The translations under genes and the position numbers were made by a program. Below the pieces are notes generated by a model that was not told the DNA's origin, searched no databases, and saw nothing but the letters and a program-made list of their open reading frames with translations. A DNA stretch of 58,895 nucleotides from positions 1 through 58,895 of the forward strand of contig NZ_WSFU01000054.1 in NCBI RefSeq assembly GCF_016820635.1, read 5' to 3'. Positions 1 through 49,957 of the stretch are shown here, piece after piece. Every line of letters starts with the position of its first letter. Position 1 is the stretch's first letter. Source of the stretch: Anaeromonas gelatinilytica (GTDB lineage: Bacteria; Bacillota; Clostridia; Tissierellales; SIT17).

Positions 1-62
1 GACGGTGCATAATACGTGCACCTGAGCACCCTTCTAATACGGCAGGGGATTTCATCCCCTAC
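1..62. repeat. GC-rich double hairpin at the window edge, possibly the end of a repeat or insertion element
   Basis: Two perfect hairpins follow each other: GGTGCA/TGCACC (positions 4-9 and 17-22, 7-base loop) and AGGGGAT/ATCCCCT (44-50 and 54-60, 3-base loop). The GC content is far above the surrounding DNA. Compact subterminal hairpins of this kind are typical of IS200/IS605 right ends and of their guide-RNA region, but no transposase is visible and the sequence is cut by the window edge. A REP-type repeat is equally possible. Confidence 0.3.
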
Positions 63-167
63 AGCCCCTATTTTTTATTGTCTTCCAATATTTTCTGTAA
101 CTATTAACCCTTGTATTTATCAATACTCTAAAACTTTTATTAAATAAAGTTTCACAATAAAAAATAT

Positions 168-44080: not shown

Positions 44081-45901
44081 TTAGCTAATCGAATTAATCT
44101 CTTCTTCCTTAAATTGATTAGTATAAAGATCATAATAATAACCTTTGTTTTTAATCAATTGTTTGTGTGTTCCTTCCTCTATTATCTTTCCTTTCTTTAT
44201 GACTAATATTCTATCTGAATTTACTATTGTTGACAATCTATGAGCTATTATAAAACTGGTCCTATCTTGTAATACTTTTTCAATTGCATCTTGTATTTTC
44301 TTTTCTGTTTCTGTATCAATCGATGAAGTAGCTTCATCTAAAACAAATATTCTGGGATTAGATACAATTGCTCTAGCAAAAGAAATCAATTGTTTTTGAC
44401 CCGTTGATAATTTTCCTCCACCTTCTCCAACTTGAGTATCATATCCCTTATCCAATTTTGTAATAAATTCATGAGCATTAACTAATTTAGATACTCTAAT
44501 AACATCCATTTCTGTAATATTATTACCACCATACTTTATATTCTCCATTATTGTTCCACTAAAAAGATGTGGACTTTGTAAAACATATCCAATATTAGAA
44601 TGAAGCCAAGATAGAGATCTCTTTCTATAATCTATACCATCTATTAATATTTCTCCTTCACTAGGCTCATAAAATCTACAAACTAAATTAACTATTGTAC
44701 TTTTCCCAGATCCAGTTTCTCCTACTAATGCAATAGTTTCACCAGATTTTATTTTAAGATTAAACTTCTCTAATACTTTTTCACCATTTTCATACTTAAA
44801 TACTACATTTTTATACTCTATATCCCCTTTTAAATCTTCCCAATTGTCTTCCTTGGGATTAAGTATATCTCCATATTCCCTTCTAATACCTTCATTATCT
44901 TTTATATCTGGTTCCATTTCTACTAAAGATATAACTCTTTCAGCAGAGGCTTGAGCAGCTTGAAGCTCAGCAAACACTCTTGCTATTTCTCTAACAGGCT
45001 CAAAAAACAATGTGGTATAAGATAAAAACGCAACTAATGTACCATAACTGATGTTTTCTGTTAATACTCCATTACCTCCAAACCATAAAGCCAAACCAGT
45101 ACCTAAGCTTCCTAATGTTAATACTATAGGTAAGAACAAAGCTGAAAAAATAGCTGCTCTTATAGATACATATCTCATAGATCCAGTTAAATCTGTAAAC
45201 TCTTTTAGATTTTCCTCTTCTCTAACTAATGTTTTTGTAGTCTGTGCCCCACTTATACCTTCATTAAAACTTCCTGTTATTTTTGAATTAATTTTCCTTA
45301 CATCCCTATATGCCTTTAATATTTTCTTTTGAAAATACATGCTCAATATAGCTAATATCGGAACAACAGATAAAGTAATTAGAGCTAGTTTAAAATTAAG
45401 TACTAAAAGTACCACTGCGACACCAAACATAAAAGTTAATCCCCAAGCAGAATCTACTAAACCCCAACTTATTGTTTCTCCTAGCCTTCTAACATCTGAA
45501 GTCATCCTAGCCATTATCCATCCAATAGGTGTTTTATCATAGTATGTGAAAGATAATTCCTGTAATTTTTTAAAGCCTAATTTTCTAATATCATATTGAA
45601 TTCCCATTTCAATTTTTCCAGCTAAGGCTATAAATAATCCTACATTTACAACTTGAAATAAGATCAATAATACATAAACAATTGTAAACCTACCTAGACC
45701 ATTAACATTGCCCGGAACAACAAAGTTATCTATTGCTCTTCTAGTCATCAAAGGGAATATTAAATCTATTCCTGCCACTGACACCATAACAAAGCCTAAA
45801 ATTATTAAATACTTTTTATAGTTTCTCATATATTTAAATATTCGTTTCCATATACTTAAATCTAATTTACTACTATAATCCTGCTCTTCAAATCCTGTCA
45901 T
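44081..45901 (-). CDS. Multidrug ABC exporter subunit with canonical ATPase site (BmrD-like)
   Basis: A 606-residue half-transporter: six membrane helices (about 30-320) fused to an ABC ATPase (Walker A GETGSGKST, Walker B IFVLDEATSSID with catalytic Glu, H-loop IIAHRLST). The signature is altered (KLSTGQKQLISFA). Together with the next gene upstream it forms a heterodimer of the TM287/288-BmrCD type, in which one composite ATP site is degenerate. The ATG at 45901, eight bases after AGGAG, is chosen. It lies 19 bases downstream of its partner and has no obvious terminator. Confidence 0.94.
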   Translation of the reverse strand: MTGFEEQDYSSKLDLSIWKRIFKYMRNYKKYLIILGFVMVSVAGIDLIFPLMTRRAIDNFVVPGNVNGLGRFTIVYVLLILFQVVNVGLFIALAGKIEMGIQYDIRKLGFKKLQELSFTYYDKTPIGWIMARMTSDVRRLGETISWGLVDSAWGLTFMFGVAVVLLVLNFKLALITLSVVPILAILSMYFQKKILKAYRDVRKINSKITGSFNEGISGAQTTKTLVREEENLKEFTDLTGSMRYVSIRAAIFSALFLPIVLTLGSLGTGLALWFGGNGVLTENISYGTLVAFLSYTTLFFEPVREIARVFAELQAAQASAERVISLVEMEPDIKDNEGIRREYGDILNPKEDNWEDLKGDIEYKNVVFKYENGEKVLEKFNLKIKSGETIALVGETGSGKSTIVNLVCRFYEPSEGEILIDGIDYRKRSLSWLHSNIGYVLQSPHLFSGTIMENIKYGGNNITEMDVIRVSKLVNAHEFITKLDKGYDTQVGEGGGKLSTGQKQLISFARAIVSNPRIFVLDEATSSIDTETEKKIQDAIEKVLQDRTSFIIAHRLSTIVNSDRILVIKKGKIIEEGTHKQLIKNKGYYYDLYTNQFKEEEINSIS

Positions 45902-45920
45902 TTCAGTCACTCCTTTCGTC

Positions 45921-47720
45921 CTATACTATATTGCCAATCTCTGATTCTATGTTATTTTGTATAGTCCATATTCTTTTATATAATCCTGTTTTCTTTATCA
46001 ATTCTTCATGAGTTCCTACTTGAACTATCTCACCATCTTTCAAAACTATAATTTTATCAGCTCCTGCAACTGTAGACACTCTATGAGAAATTATAAATGT
46101 TGTTACTCCTTTTTTCCTTTCTTCTAAGGCTCTTCTTATTGCTAAATCAGTTTCAGCGTCTACTGCACTCAAAGAATCATCAAATACTAAAATTGGACTA
46201 TTATTTATCAATGTTCTAGCTATAGCTATCCTTTGTTTTTGACCTCCTGATAATGTAACTCCTTTTTCTCCCACCTTAGTATCATATCCTCTTTCAAAAT
46301 CCTCAATTACATTATGAATAGCTGCCACTCTAGCAGATTCAATTATTTCTGCATCCTTTGCCTCCATCCTTGCGATACTAATATTATCTTTTATACTCCT
46401 TGAAAATAAAAATGGTTCTTGTAAAACTATACCTACATTTTTTCTTATCCATTTTCGTTGTATATCTTTAAGCTCTACACCATCTATTTTTATGGATCCA
46501 CACCTATAATCATATAACCTCGCTAATAAATGAATTAAAGATGACTTTCCTGAACCAGTTTGACCCATGATAGCTATAGTTTCCCCTTCTTTTACTTCAA
46601 AGGATATATTTTTTAATATTTCATTACCATCACCATAATCAAATGAAACATTTTCAAATTTAATATGTCCTTTAATGTTTGGAGTTAATTCATTAGATTT
46701 CACTTCTTCTATAGGTGACTCTAAAATTTCTTCTATTCTCTCCAAAGATACTAAAGATTTACCTAAATCTGTTAGTATACGACCTAACTGTCTAACAGGC
46801 CATAATAACATTCCTTCATAACTAGTAAATACTACTAATGTTCCTAATGTTATATTTCCAGTAGTTGCCCAATAAGTACCTAAAATTAAAACTGCTCCTA
46901 TTTGAAGTAAACATAACAAATCTGATAATGCCCAATATCCTGCTAATAATTTTATTAATCTATAGGACAAATATCTATAAGTCTCATTTTTTTCCTCAAA
47001 TTTATCAATTTCAAATTTTTCTTTATTAAAAGCTCTAACAACTCTTACACCACTTAAATTTTCCTGTAACACAGTAGACATATCTGCCTCTGCCTCATCA
47101 GATAATCTAAATGCCTTTTTCACTTTAAGAAAAAATACAATAGCAAATGTAAATATAATAGGTACTACAGCTATTGATACCAATGCCATTTTAAAATCTA
47201 ATGAAAACATAATAACAGCTACAAATGATATCATAAATATTGCTCTGCCTATCTCTACAAATTGTATCGACAAAAACTTTCTTATAGTGTCAACATCTGA
47301 AGTACAACGTTGGATTAAATCTCCTGTTTCTGATTTAACATGATAACCATAAGGTTGATGTTGAATATGATCATATAAACTTTCTCTTATATTCTTAGCA
47401 ATAGACTCTGCTGCTTGAGCTGACCATTTTCCTTTAGCATATAAAAATATTCCTTGAATAATTGTAAGTATAACTAGTACTAATGCACTTAAATATAAAT
47501 TCCTTTCCAAAAACTCTACTCCACCTATTCTATTTATTCCATCTATAATAAAATCAGGTGCCTCTAAAGCTTTATTACCAATCACTGAATCAATTGATAT
47601 CTTTAACACTAATGGATTAATTATTGAAGCAAATGTTGCTAACCCAATACTTAATATAGCTCCCAAATATATCAATCTATTCCCTCTCATAAATTTCCAT
47701 AATAATTTTAATCTATTCAT
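45921..47720 (-). CDS. Multidrug ABC exporter subunit with degenerate Walker B (BmrC-like)
   Basis: A 599-residue half-transporter with six membrane helices and an ABC domain: Walker A GQTGSGKSS, intact signature TLSGGQKQRIAIA, and Walker B ILVFDDSLSAVD, in which aspartate replaces the catalytic glutamate, as in BmrC. The two subunits therefore complement each other: this one supplies the good signature, its partner the good Walker B. It starts with ATG after GAGGAGG. In Bacillus, bmrCD is induced by ribosome-targeting antibiotics through the BmrB leader; the long leader here suggests the same. Confidence 0.94.
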   Translation of the reverse strand: MNRLKLLWKFMRGNRLIYLGAILSIGLATFASIINPLVLKISIDSVIGNKALEAPDFIIDGINRIGGVEFLERNLYLSALVLVILTIIQGIFLYAKGKWSAQAAESIAKNIRESLYDHIQHQPYGYHVKSETGDLIQRCTSDVDTIRKFLSIQFVEIGRAIFMISFVAVIMFSLDFKMALVSIAVVPIIFTFAIVFFLKVKKAFRLSDEAEADMSTVLQENLSGVRVVRAFNKEKFEIDKFEEKNETYRYLSYRLIKLLAGYWALSDLLCLLQIGAVLILGTYWATTGNITLGTLVVFTSYEGMLLWPVRQLGRILTDLGKSLVSLERIEEILESPIEEVKSNELTPNIKGHIKFENVSFDYGDGNEILKNISFEVKEGETIAIMGQTGSGKSSLIHLLARLYDYRCGSIKIDGVELKDIQRKWIRKNVGIVLQEPFLFSRSIKDNISIARMEAKDAEIIESARVAAIHNVIEDFERGYDTKVGEKGVTLSGGQKQRIAIARTLINNSPILVFDDSLSAVDAETDLAIRRALEERKKGVTTFIISHRVSTVAGADKIIVLKDGEIVQVGTHEELIKKTGLYKRIWTIQNNIESEIGNIV

Positions 47721-47761
47721 TTTAAATCCTCCTCTAGTATTAATAAATAATATTTAAACTA

Positions 47762-47824
47762 TTAGGGATCATATAAATATCTCTCCTTCAGCATTAATAT
47801 TTTTTTCATTTTTCTAAAAAACAT
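47762..47824 (-). CDS. Short leader ORF 2 (20 codons) directly before the exporter genes
   Basis: ATG at 47824, seven bases after a perfect GGAGG, followed by 19 more codons and TAA at 47762. The peptide is basic and hydrophobic (begins MFFRKMKKILML). It lies after both terminators and ends 41 bases before the exporter ATG, so it could couple translation or act as a stalling peptide. Expression is likely given the site, function unknown. Confidence 0.5.
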   Translation of the reverse strand: MFFRKMKKILMLKERYLYDP

Positions 47825-47840
47825 ATTATAACCTCCTAAA

Positions 47841-47906
47841 TTATTTATAGATTGAAAATCTACTTAAAAAAGCCATGGATTTATAAATCCATGGCTTTAA
47901 ATGCAT
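47841..47906 (-). other. Short ORF through terminator 2 (21 codons), doubtful
   Basis: ATG at 47906 is seven bases after AGGA, a weak site, and reads through the whole terminator 2 hairpin (peptide begins MHLKPWIYK) to TAA at 47841. A translating ribosome would melt that hairpin. It may be fortuitous. Confidence 0.25.
47864..47898 (-). terminator. Attenuator terminator 2
   Basis: A 30-base perfect palindrome (AAAGCCATGGATTTA and its complement, 47869-47898) followed on the minus strand by further T bases (six in a row counting the end of the stem). It lies between leader ORF 1 and the exporter genes. Confidence 0.8.
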
Positions 47907-47949
47907 AATATTATCCTAATATGTATAAATTTATACTAAAATTAGACAA

Positions 47950-47981
47950 TAAAAAAACCATAGATACCCATACCTATGGTT
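47950..47981 (-). terminator. Attenuator terminator 1
   Basis: AACCATAG (47974-47981) and CTATGGTT (47957-47964) form a perfect 8-bp stem with a 9-base loop, followed by seven T bases on the minus strand. It starts 18 bases after the stop codon of leader ORF 1. Confidence 0.8.
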
Positions 47982-47999
47982 AAAGTCAAATTTAAAAAA

Positions 48000-48080
48000 T
48001 TATAAATAACTCCCATAGGCCGATTTGATAAAATCAGATTTAATTGATAATTTATTTAACACATTCATTAAAGTTTTCAT
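48000..48080 (-). CDS. Leader peptide ORF 1 (26 codons) of the ABC exporter
   Basis: ATG at 48080, seven bases after a perfect GGAGG, gives a 26-residue peptide (starts MKTLMNVLNKLS, ends KSAYGSYL) with TAA at 48000. It sits between a consensus promoter and terminator 1, and codons 21-23 (Ala-Tyr-Gly) contain the antiterminator segment. This is the layout of Bacillus BmrB, the leader peptide that controls bmrCD by ribosome-mediated attenuation; length and sequence differ, so the link is by architecture. Confidence 0.75.
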   Translation of the reverse strand: MKTLMNVLNKLSIKSDFIKSAYGSYL

Positions 48081-48117
48081 TTTACGACCTCCTTCTTTTG
48101 AGTTATTTTACTAACTA

Positions 48118-48146
48118 ATTATAATATATATTTCAGAAAATTTCAA
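48118..48146 (-). promoter_or_regulatory. Sigma-A promoter of the exporter leader
   Basis: TTGAAA (48141-48146) and TATAAT (48118-48123) with exactly 17 bases between. It lies about 38 bases before the ATG of leader ORF 1. Confidence 0.88.
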
Positions 48147-48177
48147 GTACTTTTTTTATAAAAATTCTTCTGAAATA

Positions 48178-48642
48178 TTAATCAACTTCTTTTACCTCAA
48201 TATATAACTCTAAAATATCACTTAATAATACTTTTCTTACCTTTAACTTATACGATGTTTCCTCAAATTTCATTATTCTATTATCTACTATTTCTGATAT
48301 CATATTTATATCAATATCCTTTATTTCTTTTCCTATAAGATCAATATATTTTTCTTTTATATGTTTATTTAATTCCATCTCATCAATCTCATCATTAAGA
48401 TTTTCTATTTTTATATTTATATCCTTTAAAATATATTTATTACTATTTATAGATTCCTCTATTTTTTTTAATTTTGAATCCTTTTCTTCCAATAATGAAT
48501 AATAAGTATTCATTTTTTGATAATACTCATCAATTTTATAAGATGCAAATATAGTTATTGCTATTGCTCCTATTATCATACCTATTATAATTCCTAATGT
48601 TATGGTTATAAAATATTTATTTATATCTTTCATTCTAACCAT
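48178..48642 (-). CDS. YtrI-like sporulation membrane protein
   Basis: A 154-residue protein with one N-terminal membrane helix (ITLGIIIGMIIGAIAITIF) and a coiled coil of about 70 residues, then a short end domain. In Bacillus ytrI follows ytrH and both are needed for efficient sporulation; YtrI has the same helix-plus-coiled-coil layout. The name rests on position and layout. The first ATG overlaps the ytrH stop (ATGA-type coupling); an ATG three codons later is an alternative. Confidence 0.65.
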   Translation of the reverse strand: MVRMKDINKYFITITLGIIIGMIIGAIAITIFASYKIDEYYQKMNTYYSLLEEKDSKLKKIEESINSNKYILKDINIKIENLNDEIDEMELNKHIKEKYIDLIGKEIKDIDINMISEIVDNRIMKFEETSYKLKVRKVLLSDILELYIEVKEVD

Positions 48643-49856: not shown

Positions 49857-49957
49857 CTCTTATCTAGAGAGGTGGAGGGACTGGCCCTATGAAACCCGGC
49901 AACCAATACTTAAAGTATATGGTGCTAATTCCAGCGGTAAATACCGAAAGATGAGAG
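49857..49957 (+). ncRNA. SAM-I (S-box) riboswitch
   Basis: The conserved core is directly readable: CTCTTATC (P1 5' side), AGAGAGGTGGAGGGACTGGC, GATGAAACCCGGCAACC-type segment (here CTATGAAACCCGGCAACC), GGTGCTAATTCC and GAAAGATGAGAG (P1 3' side). It binds S-adenosylmethionine and folds the downstream terminator when methionine is plentiful. It controls metNIQ. Confidence 0.97.

Follow-up and report, generated by a model that had tools for sequence, protein, structure and literature searches.

Behind an RNA leader on the minus strand (47721-48146) of a 58,895-nucleotide stretch of DNA from an Anaeromonas-genus genome (order Tissierellales; the whole stretch is called the window here), there is a gene pair for a heterodimeric ABC exporter, and the leader contains a small upstream open reading frame (uORF) followed by two predicted terminators. 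This locus raises the question of whether two terminators in series could be governed by a single decision, taken by one ribosome on the uORF. A first-pass annotation had proposed that they are, through a chain of five segments in which each pairing excludes its neighbours. Having compared this leader with those of related genomes and folded them, we consider that it probably attenuates transcription through two terminators that are linked to each other and gated by a ribosome.

Anatomy of the leader and its exporter

Both exporter proteins match heterodimeric exporters with solved structures, among many other matches, and these include YheH of B. subtilis BmrCD, TmrAB, and TM287/288. In the protein sequences, the residue after the Walker B aspartate is Asp in one subunit and Glu in the other, a split that we take to be a mark of heterodimeric exporters. 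A BmrCD-like exporter therefore stands downstream of the leader, as in the bmrB/bmrCD type and as the first-pass annotation had claimed. The full-length leader DNA is single copy in its own genome, and the stretch from the promoter to the second terminator is kept in three other Anaeromonas genomes (four with the window). Elsewhere in the window, a SAM riboswitch (49857-49957, plus strand) precedes an ABC importer operon of opposite orientation, and a match to the Clostridiales-2 sRNA family (1-76, minus strand) is cut by the window end.

The other parts that had been listed for the leader were recovered as well (Table 1), namely a promoter with 17-base spacing, a 26-codon reading frame with a good ribosome site, an antiterminator segment inside it, two terminator hairpins with a U tract after each, and the pairings 1:2, 2:3, 3:4, and 4:5, all of which are present on folding. 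The chain was incomplete, however, since a pairing of the uORF Shine-Dalgarno (SD) region with segment 1 (0:1) and a second small reading frame, ORF2, had been overlooked. Promoter-like hits at the loose threshold of our scan were no commoner than in shuffles (6 versus 8.3), and thus the promoter call rests on the quality of the site and on its conservation in four Anaeromonas leaders, one of which has TATACT. The first terminator, T1 (-11.2 kcal/mol), starts 18 nt past the uORF stop and was the only terminator-like hit of a simple scan of 47500-48400 (shuffles, 0.1); the second, T2 (-17.7 kcal/mol), is absent from the list of that scan. The whole leader folds with a z score of -3.49, and none of 100 shuffles was as good. 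A uORF with an SD overlaps a mutually exclusive antiterminator and terminator, as in ribosome-mediated attenuators of the uORF type. No family of Rfam release 15 reached its gathering score in the leader, the sub-threshold hit being the trpB-motif at 47861-47937 (24.7 bits against a gathering score of 59, E = 0.31).

Table 1. Predicted features of the leader and the genes behind it, in window positions.
Feature	Positions	Strand	Description or basis
Promoter	48118..48146	-	TTGAAA-17-TATAAT; 11/12 positions match; conserved in genus
Segment 0a	48101..48110	-	Able to pair with 48003-48011; folding
Segment 0	48084..48093	-	uORF Shine-Dalgarno region (AGGAGGTCGT); able to pair with segment 1
uORF1	48000..48080	-	26 codons, SD AGGAGG; ORF list and SD
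Segment 1	48013..48022	-	CGGCCTATGG; inside uORF; partner is segment 0 or segment 2
Segment 1b	48003..48011	-	Partner of segment 0a; folding
Terminator T1 (predicted)	47956..47981	-	Segment 2 (47971-47981), segment 3 (47956-47966), then U tract
Spacer hairpin	47910..47950	-	Between T1 and T2; in the window and G002, not aligned in G001 and G003
Terminator T2 (predicted)	47869..47898	-	Segment 4 (47885-47898), segment 5 (47869-47882), then U tract
ORF2	47762..47824	-	20 codons, own SD; possible second leader
ABC exporter subunit	45921..47720	-	599 aa; protein comparison
ABC exporter subunit	44081..45910	-	609 aa; protein comparison

Small reading frames of the ORF2 type, with their own SD, precede the exporter in 15 of the 18 leaders in which at least 70 nt separate T2 from the exporter (for G002, the 150 nt before the exporter were used in place of this gap). 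They were found upstream of the exporters of the window, L113, L117-L125, L127, L136, L140, and G002; in 14 of the 15 the last residue is Gly, Thr, or Pro, and the stop lies 39-71 nt from the exporter start. ORF2 is possibly a second leader peptide that acts on translation. A third tiny ORF of 10 codons in the window (47740-47772, minus strand), with a purine-rich SD of its own, overlaps the end of ORF2.

Relatives and the covariation of the segments

A search of 249 genomes of the order Tissierellales (E <= 1e-150) returned 93 matches to the exporter in 92 genomes, and the upstream DNA of 70 of them was examined (L109-L178). Of these regions, 69 were counted: L143 covers a sequence region already represented by L142 and was omitted, and the place of L111 was taken by the G002 leader located ahead of two inserted genes. 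Nine of the 69 (L132, L154, L163, L164, L172, L173, L175, L177, and L178) were dropped before the uORF count, either because of a contig end or because matching hairpins were fewer than two or absent, and four of the remaining 60 were without a second hairpin. The uORF, T1, and T2 are thus found together in 56 of 69 upstream regions, belonging to 16 families, and all 56 have the two adjacent predicted terminators of the ermK type; the hairpins of 15 leaders were set by hand, those of seven were trimmed to the last two, and T1 of L166 is doubtful. The exact pattern of SD plus segment 1 matches 26 of the 249 genomes, although two of these matches are a palindromic sequence and not this leader. 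Among 391 genomes sampled from the class, five have it; four of these lie outside the order and one within it. Three of the four outside leaders directly precede the same exporter (58% identity for one); both hairpins are visible in L210, and L208 has unread bases in the T2 region. In the fourth genome, G451, the leader is present and the exporter was not found within the 6 kb read behind it.

Some individual leaders deserve mention. In G451 (L245/L211), a case that weighs against our preferred reading, the two-hairpin leader precedes short ORFs (about 60 aa) similar to one another. In A. frigoriresistens (G002, L032:5617-7169), T2 and the exporter are separated by two genes, DJ-1/PfpI and GNAT by type, and the leader may control a larger operon there. 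L229 (G038), with a T1-like hairpin, a decayed segment 1, no uORF SD, and no full exporter of the type matched there, looks like a relic after gene loss. Distant exporters in an unclassified MAG and in Dielma fastidiosa (L037 and L040) have, as judged by eye, a uORF-like start and U-tracted hairpins upstream.

The relatives also bear on the position of segment 1. In 53 of 60 leaders, 16-30 nt separate the start of its core from the end of the uORF stop codon, and a ribosome terminating there would thus cover it, as the first-pass annotation had supposed; the geometry agrees with that claim. As regards what a ribosome on the uORF might sense, R-P codons are conserved around segment 1 in many leaders, and one could propose that the uORF codons report on one amino acid or encode one arrest peptide, instead of responding to translation inhibitors generally. 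Nevertheless, of the 48 leaders with a CGRCC element, 36 read it in frame 0, 9 in frame 1, and 3 in frame 2. This indicates that where the two diverge it is the RNA, not the peptide, that has been conserved, and for this reason peptide-specific sensing was dropped. The uORF of the window has no single-codon run, moreover, and the downstream gene is an exporter, and thus we find sensing of this kind very improbable. We give similarly little credence to a trans-acting RNA-binding antiterminator that would recognise the paired hairpins, with the uORF only tuning access. Similar tandem hairpins are indeed widely conserved, but their loops vary in length and sequence, and no protein is needed to explain why segment 1 lies near the uORF stop and is complementary to both the SD and segment 2.

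In the window, the SD can pair with segment 1, and segment 0a with segment 1b. Across relatives, the 0:1 duplex of a leader's own segments averages -14.2 kcal/mol against -11.8 kcal/mol for between-family pairs, and is the better one in 53 of 56 leaders and in all 16 families, an excess that must be read with the caveat that segment 1 was itself placed where it gave the best 0:1 energy with the SD. The helix occurs in exchanged forms, among them GGTCGTG:CACGACC, GGCCATG:CATGGCC, and GGTTGCG:CGCAACC.

For covariation, we used an alignment (A4) of 44 of the 56 leaders, leaving out 12 divergent ones. On A4 the OFF helices are 96.1% paired with 74 double-change cells (0/500 shuffles), and they also exceed shuffles in the numbers of pairs (1/500) and types (0/500). 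The pairing that would link the terminators, 3:4, joins the 3′ arm of T1 to the 5′ arm of T2; it is 94.5% paired with 28 double-change cells, each matched by 0/500 shuffles, and has a covariation score of 0.278 versus 0.211 (0/500). On the two measures least inflated by relatedness, however, 3:4 shows no excess over shuffles, neither in pairs with a double change (322/500) nor in further pair types (426/500). The control was 2:5, which joins the 5′ arm of T1 to the 3′ arm of T2 and which plain copying of a hairpin should favour equally with 3:4. It is 89.1% paired (9/500), with only three double-change cells (318/500) and a score reached by 125/500 shuffles.

A similar picture is obtained when the leaders are collapsed into 26 clusters of less than 75% identity. 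In that test 3:4 stands out (p = 0.001 for pairing, 0/2000 for double changes), as does 1:2 (p = 0.006 on both measures, with pair 193:254, paired in 3/44, omitted), whereas 2:5 (p = 0.09 and 0.76) and 1:4 (p = 0.41 and 1.0) do not; the 0:1 helix was not significant either in these clusters of A4, from which the divergent leaders are left out (p = 0.05 and 0.24). Own-family duplexes have better energies than other-family ones in 11 of 16 families for 1:2, 16 for 2:3, 15 for 3:4, and 16 for 4:5; 2:5 likewise shows such an excess, in 11 of 16 families, and 1:4 shows none beyond 0.2 kcal/mol. Since 1:4 has neither covariation nor an own-family excess, direct action of segment 1 on T2 was dropped as a candidate. 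A break of 3:4 in G001 and G003 was also considered and rejected, as folding gives an interrupted helix of 12 pairs (-10.9 and -11.1 kcal/mol, weaker than T2 at -14.7 and -14.4 kcal/mol).

The compensatory changes that had been predicted for all five segments are thus supported by the alignment in that 1:2, 2:3, 3:4, and 4:5 covary while 2:5 and 1:4 do not; the pair and type counts for 3:4 and a test on the cores do not support that link. In that test, the 7-nt cores of 58 leaders do not separate 3:4 (92.4% paired) from 2:5 (92.1%). This matters for an alternative that we regard as unlikely, if by no means negligible, in which an ordinary uORF attenuator at T1 is followed by an unlinked T2 that arose by local duplication of T1 and was kept as a fail-safe or attenuating step. 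The complementarity of T1 and T2 would then come only from copying, gene conversion would keep the hairpins alike, and the imperfect efficiency of T2 would limit readthrough on induction. It agrees with the near identity of the cores of T1 and T2 in most leaders and with the equal pairing of the 3:4 and 2:5 cores, and a comparison of duplex energies does not decide against it, 3:4 being stronger than 2:5 in 36 of 56 leaders and, by family, in 10 of 16 (p = 0.13). It does not account for covariation that is present in 3:4 and absent from 2:5 and 1:4 in the same alignment, nor for the 12 leaders that keep 3:4 below -10 kcal/mol with a weaker 2:5, none showing the reverse (a count made by eye with a cut-off chosen afterwards). 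Another explanation for the likeness, that the hairpin is a common terminator of these genomes, was rejected, as it is rare elsewhere: CCATAGG..CCTATGG followed by a T tract was found at 40 places in 80 genomes, 33 within these leaders and 7 outside, with the context checked for some of the 40.

Folding energetics and a candidate mechanism

Taken on their own stretches, the antiterminator pairings form readily on folding. When only the RNA that spans segments 3 and 4 is folded, the optimal structure contains 3:4 in 55 of 56 leaders, with a median of 11 bp; when the RNA ends with segment 2, it contains 1:2 in 51 of 56. With the competing arm present, the antiterminator minus terminator difference has a median of +0.9 kcal/mol for T1 (23 of 56 leaders favour the antiterminator or tie) and +2.4 kcal/mol for T2 (20 of 56 favour 3:4 or tie). 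In the other 36 leaders T2 thus prevails over 3:4 at equilibrium, which is what an unlinked T2 would lead one to expect, although such a T2 would also hold the exporter down even when induced. In the window, the T1 antiterminator is favoured by 4.8 kcal/mol, and T2 is favoured over 3:4 by 6.6 kcal/mol at equilibrium.

The first-pass annotation had suggested comparing folds with and without 48000-48030 masked. In models that start the transcript at 48111 and represent the ribosome by a mask of 31 nt, 1:2 reaches about 7.6 expected pairs before segment 3 emerges in every state but that of a ribosome on the stop codon, where it is abolished because the mask excludes segment 1. Once T1 is complete and the 5′ end is free, however, 0:1 together with T1 outcompetes 1:2, which has no more than 1.6 expected pairs in any of the ribosome states tried, and thus a stalled ribosome would need either to keep the 5′ partner away or to act early enough. 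When the 5′ end is left out of the fold, 1:2 accounts for 5.3 pairs and 2:3 for 3.7. As for the second switch, 3:4 has 11.6 expected pairs when segments 1 and 2 are taken and segment 4 is out, and it falls to 0.04 once T2 is complete. Given that T2 beats 3:4 and that 0:1 with T1 beats 1:2 at equilibrium, the switch, if it works, must be kinetic, depending on order and timing.

On our preferred reading of linked terminators, three situations can be envisaged. Without a ribosome, the SD region would pair with segment 1, 1:2 would be blocked, and T1 would form. A ribosome finishing the uORF would sit on segment 1 at the stop codon, so that 1:2 would again be prevented and T1 would form, with T2 catching what leaks through. 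A ribosome held inside the uORF, or a queue of ribosomes, would keep the 5′ partner away and leave segment 1 free, 1:2 would form once segment 2 emerges, and T1 would be lost; the free segment 3 could then capture segment 4 before segment 5 is made, whereupon T2 would be lost or delayed and the exporter transcribed. We infer that both terminators work and that antitermination proceeds through kinetic capture by 3:4, and, by analogy with BmrB/bmrCD, the signal would be slowed translation.

Because the matching pieces of the two terminators evolve together, the sequences suggest that one stalled ribosome could disarm both at once. In its fullest form, the proposal is that of a domino attenuator, in which one decision of the uORF ribosome passes along six segments (0:1, 1:2, 3:4), a single stall disarming two terminators and a single finished translation arming both, which would make a tighter and sharper switch than one terminator; we judge its chances to be slightly better than even. 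If this is true, a single translational event would set two serial terminators, multiplying repression in the off state without loss of induction, and the retention of two matching terminators ahead of the exporter in 16 families would be accounted for. A BmrCD-type exporter of Tissierellales would also be placed under a translation-sensing leader that has no Rfam match. The leaders further offer a covarying and widely conserved set of natural sequences for measuring how fast strands exchange during transcription and what a tandem attenuator gains over a single one.

Comparison with known systems

The ermK attenuator of Bacillus licheniformis was reportedly described by Kwak in 1991. The ermK leader has two adjacent intrinsic terminators (PMC4335068), as the present one does, but it precedes an rRNA methylase gene (erm) instead of an ABC exporter; a linkage between its terminators may exist. 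Tandem terminators as such are thus known, and the novelty that the first-pass annotation had claimed is confined to the linked relay, of which none was recognised by title or start of abstract in a literature search whose coverage leaves out most subscription papers, including the primary ones on ermK. The passages seen of two surveys of bacterial structured RNAs (PMC8632094, PMC11109978) contain no such motif. A second tandem terminator, an inverse motif, and a potential antiterminator have been noted for the rimP-leader in several Gammaproteobacteria (PMC2965389); that leader belongs to another gene and clade, and a uORF is not mentioned in the passage on it.

Other parts of the design recall the leaders of vmlR (PMC9226507) and cplR (PMC10201436), for which a uORF in an anti-antiterminator hairpin, an antiterminator, and a terminator are reported, and anti-SD elements are discussed for cplR (PMC10201436). 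According to the same passages, those leaders have one terminator, ABCF genes, very short uORFs (MIN, MRI), and sequestering of the SD of the main gene, which sets them apart from the present leader.

The closest parallel in gene content is the bmrB leader of bmrCD in Bacillus subtilis, for which Reilman et al. (2014; PMC4191407) describe three alternative stem-loops and a terminator inside the 53-aa bmrB ORF, as well as induction of bmrCD by lincomycin, erythromycin, and chloramphenicol that needs bmrB translation. Both leaders place a leader ORF before a multidrug ABC exporter pair, and bmrB has a terminator, an antiterminator, and a predicted anti-antiterminator. In contrast to bmrB as described there, where the terminator lies within the leader ORF, the present leader has two terminators after the uORF stop, its SD region can itself pair with segment 1, and its two terminators are complementary to each other. 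What distinguishes this leader is a protector built on the uORF's own SD and a covarying bridge between two terminators.
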